The position numbers and the translations under genes are program-made. From NCBI GenBank assembly GCA_947500415.1, contig CANMRT010000001.1:1452982-1516981 (forward strand): a stretch of DNA of 64,000 nucleotides. The letters are read 5' to 3'. Below, piece by piece: positions 42,158-46,275 of this stretch. The DNA comes from an uncultured Roseicyclus sp. (GTDB lineage Bacteria; Pseudomonadota; Alphaproteobacteria; Rhodobacterales; Rhodobacteraceae). The first letter of the stretch is position 1. Each line of letters opens with the position of its first letter. The notes beneath the pieces are model-generated. The model was not told where the DNA came from and searched no databases. It saw only the letters and a list, made by a program, of their open reading frames with translations.

Positions 42158-43465
42158 TCAACTGTCGCCAAAGACCCGGGCGAAGATCGTGTCGACGTGT
42201 TTGGTGTGGTAGCCCATGTCGAATTTCTCGCGGATCGCGTCTTCGCCAAGGGCCGCGACGACCTCTGGATCATCCAAAAGCAAAGTCTGGAAATCGAGGC
42301 GTTCTTCCCAAACCTTCAGCGCATTGCGTTGCACCATTGCATAGGCATCTTCACGGCTGACACCTGCTTGCGTGAGCGCCAGAAGCACACGCTGCGACAT
42401 TACGAGGCCGGGGAATTTATTCATATTCTCCAGCATGTTCTCGGGGAAGACTAGCATCTTCTCGACTACGCCAGCCAGGCGATGCAGCGCGAAATCGAGG
42501 GTAACCGTCGAGTCCGGCCCGATCATCCGCTCAACGGAGGAATGCGAGATGTCGCGCTCATGCCAAAGCGCGACGTTTTCCATCGCGGGCACCACGCCCA
42601 TGCGCACCAGACGCGCAAGGCCGGTGAGGTTTTCGGTCAGAACTGGGTTCTTCTTGTGCGGCATTGCACTTGAACCCTTTTGGCCCATGGAGAAAAATTC
42701 AGCGCCTTCCAGAACTTCCGTCCGCTGCATGTGGCGGATTTCCACGGCGATGTTTTCGATGCTGGACGCAATCACGCCGAGCGTTGCAAAGAAGGCCGCG
42801 TGGCGATCGCGGGGGATGACCTGGGTGGAAATGGGTTCAGGCTCCAGCCCCAATTGCGCGCAAACATGCTCTTCCACGCGCGGGTCGATGTTGGCGAATG
42901 TGCCCACGGCGCCAGAAATGGCCCCTGTCGCGATTTCAGCGCGCGCGGCCTGCATCCGGGTCCTGTTGCGATCCATCTCGGCGTAGAAACGCGCGAAGGT
43001 CAGGCCCATGGTCGTGGGCTCGGCGTGGATGCCGTGGGAGCGGCCAACACGCAGTGTGTCCTTGTGCTCCATCGCGCGCGTCTTCAGGGCGGCGAGGACG
43101 CGGTCGAGACCGGCCAGCAGGATGTCCGCCGCGCGCACCAGTTGTACGTTGAAGCAGGTGTCGAGCACGTCCGAAGACGTCATGCCCTGATGCACAAATC
43201 GCGCCTCTTCAGATCCCACATGTTCCGCCAGATGGGTCAGGAAAGCGATGACGTCATGTTTCGTCACGGCCTCAATTTCATCAATCCTCGCAACGTCGAA
43301 CTCCACATCCTTGGCTTTCCACACCGCCTCCGCGTTCTCACGCGGGATCACGCCCAGATCGGCCATGGCATCGCAGGCGTGCGCCTCGATCTCGTACCAG
43401 ATGCGGAACTTTGTGGCGGGCTCCCAGATGGCGGTCATCTCGGGGCGGGAATAGCGGGGGATCAT
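42158..43465 (-). CDS. purB: Adenylosuccinate lyase
   Basis: A 435-residue enzyme of purine synthesis that cleaves SAICAR and adenylosuccinate. It starts MIPRYSRPEM and shows the family marks FVHQGMTSSDVLDT (His/Ser region), GRSHGIHAEPTT and the flexible signature loop GSSAMPHKKNP with the catalytic serine. The track frame begins 59 residues earlier, without support. It is divergent from the small exported protein at 43530. Nothing suggests special regulation here. Confidence 0.96.
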   Translation of the reverse strand: MIPRYSRPEMTAIWEPATKFRIWYEIEAHACDAMADLGVIPRENAEAVWKAKDVEFDVARIDEIEAVTKHDVIAFLTHLAEHVGSEEARFVHQGMTSSDVLDTCFNVQLVRAADILLAGLDRVLAALKTRAMEHKDTLRVGRSHGIHAEPTTMGLTFARFYAEMDRNRTRMQAARAEIATGAISGAVGTFANIDPRVEEHVCAQLGLEPEPISTQVIPRDRHAAFFATLGVIASSIENIAVEIRHMQRTEVLEGAEFFSMGQKGSSAMPHKKNPVLTENLTGLARLVRMGVVPAMENVALWHERDISHSSVERMIGPDSTVTLDFALHRLAGVVEKMLVFPENMLENMNKFPGLVMSQRVLLALTQAGVSREDAYAMVQRNALKVWEERLDFQTLLLDDPEVVAALGEDAIREKFDMGYHTKHVDTIFARVFGDS

Positions 43466-43529
43466 GGGCTTGCCTTTCGCGGTGGCTTTCGGCTGTCTGA
43501 TAGGCGGATGCAGCGGAGGGAACAAGGCG

Positions 43530-43868
43530 ATGCGGGCGATATTGGTGGCTTTGATGGTGTTGTCTGGCCCGGCGGTGGCGCAGGACTGGATCGTGATGAA
43601 CGGCGAAGAGATTGCGGAGGTTCTGACCGACCGTTCCGTCACCTATGACAACGGGGCCACACAGCGATTCTTTTCGTCAGGTCGTACGCTTTACTCCCAC
43701 GGAGAACCTTCATGGGGTTCGTGGGAGGTGCGCGGCAACGATTACTGCTCCCTCTGGCCGCCGTCGCCCACCTGGGACTGCTACGCCGTGCAAAGCGCAA
43801 ACCCCGACGGGATCGTGTTTCTGGACGGGTTCGGCAATCGCTTCGAAGGGCGGATCGAGGCGGAATGA
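43530..43868 (+). CDS. Small exported hypothetical protein
   Basis: A 112-residue protein with a signal peptide ending AVA-QDW at about 17. The mature part has NGEEIAEVLTDRSVTYDNGATQRFF and later GSWEVRGNDYCSLWPPSPTWDCY, a pattern seen in exported proteins that fold as small beta sandwiches with one disulfide. GGAGGG precedes the ATG at 43530. Its stop overlaps the DUF6314 start by ATGA. I do not assign a function. Confidence 0.78.
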   Translation: MRAILVALMVLSGPAVAQDWIVMNGEEIAEVLTDRSVTYDNGATQRFFSSGRTLYSHGEPSWGSWEVRGNDYCSLWPPSPTWDCYAVQSANPDGIVFLDGFGNRFEGRIEAE

Positions 43869-44272: not shown

Positions 44273-44338
44273 GGGAATCCTTGCCTCGCGCAGGGTGAGC
44301 CGCGAAACTGCTGATATTTCCGCCTCAGGAGTTTTCAT

Positions 44339-45721
44339 ATGCGCCTTTTCCACGCCTTGCCTCTCGCTCTTTGCCTCGCCGCGCCTGTATCGGCGCAGGA
44401 GGCTTTCACCTGGGTTTTCAACGCCCATCACCCCTTCTCGGGCGGTGGTCCCGCGCTGGATTTGGTGGCCACCCAGACATTTGATGCGGGCCAAGCGGAA
44501 GCCGCAGGTGCCCGTATCCCAAGAGGCTTGATCTGGGCCACATGCACAGGCGGGGGTTCCGCGAACATCCGGTTTGAGGCTTTTGCCGGCGCTGCCGTCG
44601 CAGGCGATCTGGTGGCGTTCCAGATGACCGACGATGCAGGCACGGTGCTGACCTTGGAGGCGCAGATTTTCAATGCGGAGGATGACCCCGTCGGCGGGCC
44701 GGAGATCAATGTGCTGGCTGAAGGCCCAGAGCTGGCCATGCTCGCCACAGCACCTGTGGTGCGCTACGGCCTTGTGGGGCTGACGGATTTCAACATCCCC
44801 TTCAATCTGACGACTAACCAGAGCTATGTGGCGGAGTTCGTGACGGCCTGTGCTGCGGCAAGCACGGCCGCTGATCCCGTGGTGCCAGCAACAGAAGAAC
44901 CGGTGGCTGAGGTTCTGACACCCGATCTGGGCCCCGATATCTCGGGCCATGTCTGGGCGCGGGCGACACTTGTTGATGAGGGCAATCCCGAAGGCACCGT
45001 TGTGAGCATGGGATACGGCGTGCCGGAAACCGATGACATCGTGATCTCTGGGCAATGCATCTATGACGCCGAAGATCCGTTCGTTCAGCTGCAGGTCAGC
45101 GCGGACGTGGCGGGTCTGACCAATGGCGCGCCTGCGCAATTGCGGGCCAGTATACCCGACGGACGTTCGGTGGTGCTGGACGGCTCCGTCGTGGGCGTTG
45201 ACGCGGAAGTTGGCATCAGCGGGATTGAGTATATCGCCTCGGTCTCTGACCCCGCGTGGCTCGTGATTGCGGGCGACAACACGGTGCGGTTTGACCGACC
45301 AGACACAGGCACCGGCCTTACGATCACCGGCAATGGTCCCAACACCATCGGCCCGTTCCTCGCCGATTGCGCCGAAATTGCGCGGCTGACGCCCGAAAGC
45401 GGCGGTCGGCCCAGTGCGCCGATTGAGGCCCAGGCGGGATATCTGGCGTGTGACAACTTCGGCCGTGTTTCTTCACGCGATACCGGGCCAGTGCAGGTGG
45501 TGAATTTCATCAATGCGACTGACGACTACCGAGTTTTGATGTGGATCGATCCCGAGGGCAGTGTGGTCGATGTGACGAACCTCACCTCTGGGCAGGCGGC
45601 GGCCTTCAATACGAACCCCGGACATATTTGGATGGCCACCGATGGCATCGGAAATTGCCAAGAGATGATGCAAGTACCCGCTGGTGTCACGGACTATCGG
45701 ATAACAGCGGTGTCCCAATAA
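44339..45721 (+). CDS. Exported three-domain protein with VHL-beta-like C-terminus
   Basis: A 460-residue exported protein. The signal peptide ends VSA-QEAF at about 19. Two related beta-rich domains follow (about 20-175 and 197-348), each closing on an AC/DC cysteine. The C-terminal part, about 365-455, matches the pVHL beta domain: VQVVNFINAT, MWIDPEGSVVDVTNLTSGQ and PGHIWMATD correspond to the human segments around the hydroxyproline pocket, including the conserved GHxW. CAGGAG precedes the ATG. The protein is likely periplasmic or secreted; ligand unknown. Confidence 0.78.
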   Translation: MRLFHALPLALCLAAPVSAQEAFTWVFNAHHPFSGGGPALDLVATQTFDAGQAEAAGARIPRGLIWATCTGGGSANIRFEAFAGAAVAGDLVAFQMTDDAGTVLTLEAQIFNAEDDPVGGPEINVLAEGPELAMLATAPVVRYGLVGLTDFNIPFNLTTNQSYVAEFVTACAAASTAADPVVPATEEPVAEVLTPDLGPDISGHVWARATLVDEGNPEGTVVSMGYGVPETDDIVISGQCIYDAEDPFVQLQVSADVAGLTNGAPAQLRASIPDGRSVVLDGSVVGVDAEVGISGIEYIASVSDPAWLVIAGDNTVRFDRPDTGTGLTITGNGPNTIGPFLADCAEIARLTPESGGRPSAPIEAQAGYLACDNFGRVSSRDTGPVQVVNFINATDDYRVLMWIDPEGSVVDVTNLTSGQAAAFNTNPGHIWMATDGIGNCQEMMQVPAGVTDYRITAVSQ

Positions 45722-45770: not shown

Positions 45771-46196
45771 CTATTCCGCAGCGTCCTCCGCCGCCCGGGC
45801 CTCGGCCATCAGGCGGTCTGCTTTCTTGCGCACCAATACTCCGCGCAAATCGTGCATTGCCAGCAGCAGGCGGTCTGTCACATCCTCCAGATCCTCGTCC
45901 GAGGCGCGGCTCTGCGCCCAATGGGTCGTGAGGTTCAGGTAGTCAACGGCCCGGTGGATGTCGTCGATGTCGCGCTCGGCCAGAACCGCGCGCCGTTCTT
46001 CCATCCAATCGGCGATAACCGCGCTTTCCTCGTCACTCAGAACGTGATCGCCGTGGGGTTTGACGTTGCCGTTGCGGGTATTCACGACGGCGATCTCGTC
46101 CATCTCGATCCGGCGCTGCCGGTTCTCGGTCGATACCCGAAAGACCGCCGCGCCGTTTTCACGGATACGGAAGTAGAATTCGGGAAGTTCCGTCAT
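45771..46196 (-). CDS. Conserved hypothetical protein
   Basis: A 141-residue soluble protein, MTELPEFYFRIRENGAAVFRV, with an N-terminal beta part (about 1-45) and a long helical, acidic/basic C-terminal part (about 55-141). No enzymatic motif is recognised. I chose ATG 46196; the track's 17 extra residues look non-coding. It stands alone between the VHL-like gene (convergent) and the methyltransferase gene. Confidence 0.7.
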   Translation of the reverse strand: MTELPEFYFRIRENGAAVFRVSTENRQRRIEMDEIAVVNTRNGNVKPHGDHVLSDEESAVIADWMEERRAVLAERDIDDIHRAVDYLNLTTHWAQSRASDEDLEDVTDRLLLAMHDLRGVLVRKKADRLMAEARAAEDAAE

Positions 46197-46275
46197 GTTT
46201 AAGGGCCTGATCTGCGCGATTATTGTTGCTTCGGACAATCCGCCCAAAGCACGCGCAGGTCAAGGCAAGGCGGCG

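Follow-up and report, generated by a model that had tools for sequence, protein, structure and literature searches.

A diverged VHL-type beta domain at the C-terminus of a predicted exported protein in a genus of Rhodobacteraceae

The C-terminal domain of a protein encoded by an uncultured Roseicyclus sp. (Rhodobacteraceae) is a genuine but diverged homologue of the VHL beta domain, although it is not a Pfam-scored member of that family. The hydroxyproline pocket of VHL is familiar from animal oxygen sensing and from drug design (PROTACs). VHL-type domains of bacteria are already known, and the protein described here is an additional, diverged example. From its sequence we read it as an exported protein of two unnamed domains followed by the diverged VHL domain, and we lean, with moderate confidence, towards the VHL domain being a small ligand-binding module. 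The gene lies in a window of 64,000 nucleotides, the whole stretch of DNA that was analysed, and its features, all on the + strand, are as follows (window coordinates).

44327..44331, +, Shine-Dalgarno-like AGGAG, 7 bases upstream of the ATG, from sequence
44339..45721, +, exported protein gene, whole ORF, 460 aa
44339..44395, +, Sec signal peptide, residues 1-19 (MRLFHALPLALCLAAPVSA then QEAF), read by eye; full-length orthologues similar
44405..44857, +, domain 1, residues 23-173, beta-rich, with C69 and C171; homologous to domain 2 and missing from short-form orthologues
44930..45388, +, domain 2, residues 198-350, beta-rich, with C240 and C344, unnamed; precedes VHL in 8 proteins outside the genus
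45449..45709, +, VHL-beta-type domain, residues 371-457 (Pfam, profile, fold-model and conservation evidence)
45449..45451, +, C371, first Cys flanking the VHL core
45479..45646, +, residues 381-436, aligned without gaps to human VHL 67-122 (56 columns)
45542..45544, +, W402, equivalent of VHL W88, pocket residue, kept (alignment)
45572..45574, +, V412, equivalent of VHL Y98, pocket residue, lost (alignment)
45611..45616, +, T425 and N426, equivalents of VHL S111 (conservative change) and Y112 (lost) (alignment)
45620..45631, +, GHIW, with H429 = H115 and W431 = W117; kept in 13/13 orthologues with a complete domain
45656..45658, +, C440, second Cys flanking the VHL core

The ORF has exactly the start and end given in the first-pass annotation, which had described its product as an exported bacterial protein ending in a VHL-beta-like domain. 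Read by eye, the N-terminus carries a Sec-type signal peptide that ends at VSA, followed by QEAF, and has no lipobox; this agrees with export and suggests that the protein is periplasmic or secreted.

Evidence for VHL homology comes chiefly from profiles. Pfam VHL (PF01847) is the top match of the single protein but is sub-threshold (12.1 bits, E 0.2, residues 386-437), and scores across searches ranged from 12.1 to 15.3 bits against a curated cut-off of 21 bits. A phmmer search of PDB with the single sequence gave no match, VHL being found by profiles only, and the sole NCBIfam result, an amidohydrolase, was rejected as spurious. Among the orthologues, 10 of 13 match Pfam VHL at E <= 0.1, with a best E of 1.3e-5, and the one from the sister genus (L013, also numbered L035) scores 28 bits, above the cut-off. 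When a profile built from the C-terminal domains of the 13 orthologues alone was searched against all PDB chains, the best 24 matches were all VHL (E 0.0011-0.0046, 56 columns, ungapped) and the next was azurin at E 0.57. A profile drawn from 18 diverse VHL domains of bacteria, the present one included, reached human VHL at E of about 1.1e-11, in an alignment that extends to the LRS with which the VHL beta domain begins. Smith-Waterman alignment of the C-terminal 94 aa to VHL 67-122 scored 55, a value reached by 0 of 5000 shuffles (mean 21.2, sd 3.9). Within the 56 columns, 8 of the 10 positions invariant in the 13 orthologues hold the human VHL residue (F76, N78, W88, G93, G104, H115, W117 and D121; hypergeometric P 4.7e-6). 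The likeness of the last 90 residues to human pVHL, first seen by eye, is thus borne out by shuffling, profiles, invariant positions and the fold model, and the GHxW segment is present as G428 H429 I430 W431. The profile search proposed with that observation is sub-threshold for the protein alone, reaches E 1.3e-5 with its orthologues and E of about 1e-11 with a profile.

The domain is also predicted to adopt the VHL beta-sandwich fold. An AlphaFold2 model of the isolated C-terminal domain has seven strands and a mean pLDDT of 75, and Foldseek returned 63 matches to it at E <= 0.001; among the matches listed, 50 of 50 were VHL (probability 1.00, E from 1.6e-4, TM 0.58-0.66, 17-22% identity). 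The first-pass annotation had held that absence of the sandwich would refute its claim, which on this point stands at the level of prediction, since the listed matches of the domain model are all VHL. The full-length AlphaFold2 model, from five input sequences, is poor (pLDDT 53) and uninformative for domains 1 and 2; despite this low pLDDT, its Foldseek search found VHL chains at probability 0.99-1.00.

Compared with human pVHL (PDB 1lm8, 6bvb and 4awj), the bacterial domain shares the modelled beta sandwich, the ungapped 56-residue alignment and the eight identical core residues, but it is exported, has an added Cys pair, has changes at Y98, N67, R69 and Y112, and is without the alpha domain. 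The added cysteines, C371 and C440, do not vary among the orthologues or across the alignment of 18 bacterial sequences; this invariance suggests that they are likely to form a disulfide, as would suit an exported domain. The chain ends 29 residues past the equivalent of W117, which leaves it without the alpha (Elongin C) domain and excludes Elongin C binding. The protein cannot be a ubiquitin-ligase adaptor, since the alpha domain is missing and the host is a bacterium.

Two further beta domains had been proposed upstream of the VHL-like domain, and hhalign supports this in finding domains 1 and 2 homologous to each other (81%, E 1.2e-5). Neither matches a Pfam family. In the low-confidence full-length model each is predicted to have a Cys pair and a final helix. 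That they might be additional VHL domains was rejected, because they pair with each other and have no VHL match in Pfam. Outside the genus, 8 VHL-bearing proteins of Rhodobacteraceae (L025, L027, L028, L030, L035, L042, L044 and L046) also have domain 2 followed by VHL, which argues that this pair is the basic architecture and that domain 1 is a gained or lost copy. These eight proteins resemble the present one in being exported, in carrying domain 2 (E down to 1.5e-60) and in having VHL at the C-terminus, but they contain a single copy of the unnamed domain, and position 98 is Y or F in 4 of the 8.

Orthologues were found in all 12 of the other genomes of the genus that were searched, and one (L013) in another genus; public-record orthologues include those of uncultured Roseicyclus sp. 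and Rhodobacterales bacterium HKCCE4037. Seven of the genus orthologues are long forms with 49-70% identity to the protein, four are short forms without domain 1, and one, from a draft genome, is a fragment with an internal stop. Estimates of dN (0.17-0.32) are well below those of dS (1.5-3.9), the latter being near saturation. The gene order FliG-like, purB, DUF6314, the VHL-type gene, an unnamed gene, methyltransferase, LysR and ABC permease is common to relatives; vertical descent would keep the gene at one such conserved locus within a Rhodobacteraceae genus. We conclude that this is a genuine, inherited gene on which purifying selection acts. Two other frames of the window lie near it. 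The small ORF at 43464-43868, whose true start is perhaps an internal ATG giving MRAILVALMVLSGPAVAQ, looks as if it encodes a further exported protein, has no Pfam family and is conserved near the VHL-type gene in L016-L018. On the - strand, 45771-46247 encodes a 158-aa protein with no Pfam match and about 85% identity in relatives, a higher conservation than that of the VHL-type protein.

Of 298 Rhodobacteraceae genera, 28 have VHL domains above the Pfam cut-off, as do 6 of 399 species drawn from across the phylum. Among the proteins that carry them are short secreted ones, the domain-2 family, proteins with SH3-like fronts, large RTX proteins and a nine-repeat protein. One secreted bacterial VHL protein, EMK97_00595 of Litorilituus sediminis, has been published (PMC9002001); the in-silico data given there do not bear out its claims about tumour suppression. 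The literature search, in which coverage of subscription journals was thin, found no experimental study of any bacterial VHL domain. Since exported Pfam-level VHL is common in Rhodobacteraceae and one example is published (PMC9002001), the protein is less notable than the first-pass annotation supposed. The bacterial exported members of PF01847 have, like the present protein, a VHL-type beta domain near the C-terminus, and those identified in this analysis keep the W88, T/S111, H115 and W117 positions; the present protein differs from them in its sub-cut-off score, in having neither Y98 nor Y112, and in the two copies of the unnamed domain in front.

Several of these proteins merit separate description. 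The RTX-type proteins L037, L038, L039, L041, L045 and L058 have a VHL-type domain and are presumably exported, but they are far larger than the present protein (open frames of 760 to 3031 aa) and contain RTX repeats. L058 (3605-8020) belongs to the same genome as the protein studied here (C1, about 518.6-523.0 kb) and encodes an RTX-repeat protein of 1471 aa that also has a Hint domain and in which the VHL-like stretch is degenerate, scores a sub-cut-off 17.5 bits and by eye has lost W88 and H115. In L037-L039, L041 and L045, from other genera, the VHL domains have intact pockets. The nine-repeat protein (L057, 4709-10375, of the Rhodobacteraceae genome G183) is 1888 aa long, with nine tandem Pfam-level VHL beta domains that together score 316.9 bits. 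The pocket reads W-Y/F-T/S-x-H-W in almost every repeat. Beyond the repeats lies a stretch resembling an I36 inhibitor or a crystallin, then a long C-terminal part, and no signal peptide was seen. L034 and L040 are exported proteins of about 210 aa; by eye, their N-terminal part is SH3-like, and the VHL domain at their C-terminus has the intact pocket W-Y-T-Y-H-W.

The VHL residues that hold hydroxyproline in the HIF-2alpha complex are W88, Y98, I109, S111, Y112, H115 and W117; S111 and H115 bind its hydroxyl, Y98 hydrogen-bonds its carbonyl, and N67 and R69 contact the peptide (PMC6105673). By alignment, the equivalents of W88, Y98, I109, S111, Y112, H115, W117, N67 and R69 in the bacterial domain are W402, V412, F423, T425, N426, H429, W431, D381 and G383. 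For the five canonical pocket residues (W88, Y98, S111, H115 and W117) the protein has W, V, T, H and W, that is, four of five kept or conservatively changed and an incomplete pocket. The equivalents of W88, T111, H115 and W117 are invariant in all 12 complete sequences of the genus, where position 98 is V, I, M or Q and never Y, and position 112 is D or N. This conservation was not imposed by a VHL search, because the orthologues were collected by full-length similarity. The sister-genus orthologue L013 has W-Y-S-F-H-W at positions 88, 98, 111, 112, 115 and 117, with all five canonical residues, and the homologues L023 and L024 likewise keep the whole pocket. The other bacterial VHL domains compared number 49, some of them overlapping copies from a single tandem-repeat protein; T or S stands at position 111 in 48 of these and Y at position 98 in 33, so that the T/S111-H115 pair is steadier than the Y98 contact. 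The search pattern behind this wider set admits only G at 93, only H at 115 and only aromatic residues at 88 and 117, and therefore only the remaining columns are independent evidence. Loss of Y98 seems to have occurred in several bacterial lineages, as judged from a short and weakly resolved VHL-domain tree that has too few columns to support claims on origin.

The ligand-binding reading that we favour starts from this pattern. The aromatic walls (W88 and W117) are kept, as is the T111-H115 pair, whose counterpart in human VHL holds the hydroxyproline hydroxyl, and the residues gripping the peptide backbone (Y98, N67 and R69) are changed. Because the hydroxyl-holding pair and the walls are kept and the backbone-grip residues are not, we would expect the ligand to be a small group, hydroxylated or polar, carried by a peptide or glycan outside the cell or in the periplasm, and not a hydroxyproline peptide like that of HIF.

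The conserved residues could instead be structural rather than pocket-functional, a role that is conceivable because several of them are core residues in VHL. The VHL fold would then be a disulfide-bridged scaffold in a periplasmic multi-domain protein, a former pocket with no ligand. Drift at Y98 and Y112, the added C371/C440 pair, and fixed positions that are probably structural (F76, N78, G93, G104 and D121) are all consistent with this alternative, which we nevertheless regard as somewhat unlikely, given that the pocket-lining W88, T111, H115 and W117 are invariant in the 12 genus sequences and that position 111 is T or S in nearly all bacterial VHL domains.

It is doubtful that the protein is a true hydroxyproline reader, in which the exported domain would bind hydroxyproline peptides (for example those of algal or animal hydroxyproline-rich proteins) as VHL binds HIF. 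This was the claim of the first-pass annotation, and the part of it that holds is the retention of W88, H115 and W117 and of T for S111; Drosophila VHL also has T in place of S111, with the pocket still described as conserved (PMC4195687), and the canonical W-Y-S-H-W of L013 points the same way. The changes at Y112, N67 and R69, residues whose roles are taken from PMC6105673, argue against it, as does the loss of Y98 throughout the 12 complete genus sequences. HIF binding is reportedly abolished when Y98 is mutated (PMC4195687), and canonical binding of a hydroxyproline peptide by this protein is for that reason unlikely. Gene content also counts against this reading. A profile search of the protein's own genome for the PF13640 (2OG-FeII_Oxy_3) family found no prolyl-hydroxylase-type gene, and PF13640 occurs in 5 of 28 VHL-bearing and 67 of 270 other Rhodobacteraceae genera, with no co-occurrence (Fisher p 0.49). 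Production of its own hydroxyproline by a PF13640 enzyme was accordingly rejected for this genome, and the PF13640 results likewise give no support to a place for the protein in a PHD-VHL oxygen-sensing pathway. Feeding on hydroxyproline through a PF05544 epimerase was also considered, and no such gene was found in the genome.

A chance likeness between a bacterial beta sandwich and VHL, to which the Pfam E of 0.2 and the empty phmmer search of the single sequence might point, is highly improbable in view of the orthologue and profile matches, the Foldseek results, and the shuffling and invariant-position statistics.

A broader proposal, which on the sequences compared here we put forward only tentatively and consider unlikely, is that exported bacterial VHL domains are old extracellular readers of hydroxyl-bearing residues (hydroxyproline, for example) that act through the T/S111-H115 pair, outside ubiquitin and oxygen sensing; the present genus would have re-tooled the pocket, with D or N at 112 and no Y98, for a different hydroxylated ligand. 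The ligand question is better addressed with L013, L023 and L024, homologues in which the pocket is complete, than with the diverged protein described here. Rhodobacteraceae carry many exported VHL copies in which the hydroxyl-holding residues are kept with no linked hydroxylase, and the ligand of an exported bacterial VHL domain would reveal a use of this pocket outside the HIF pathway.
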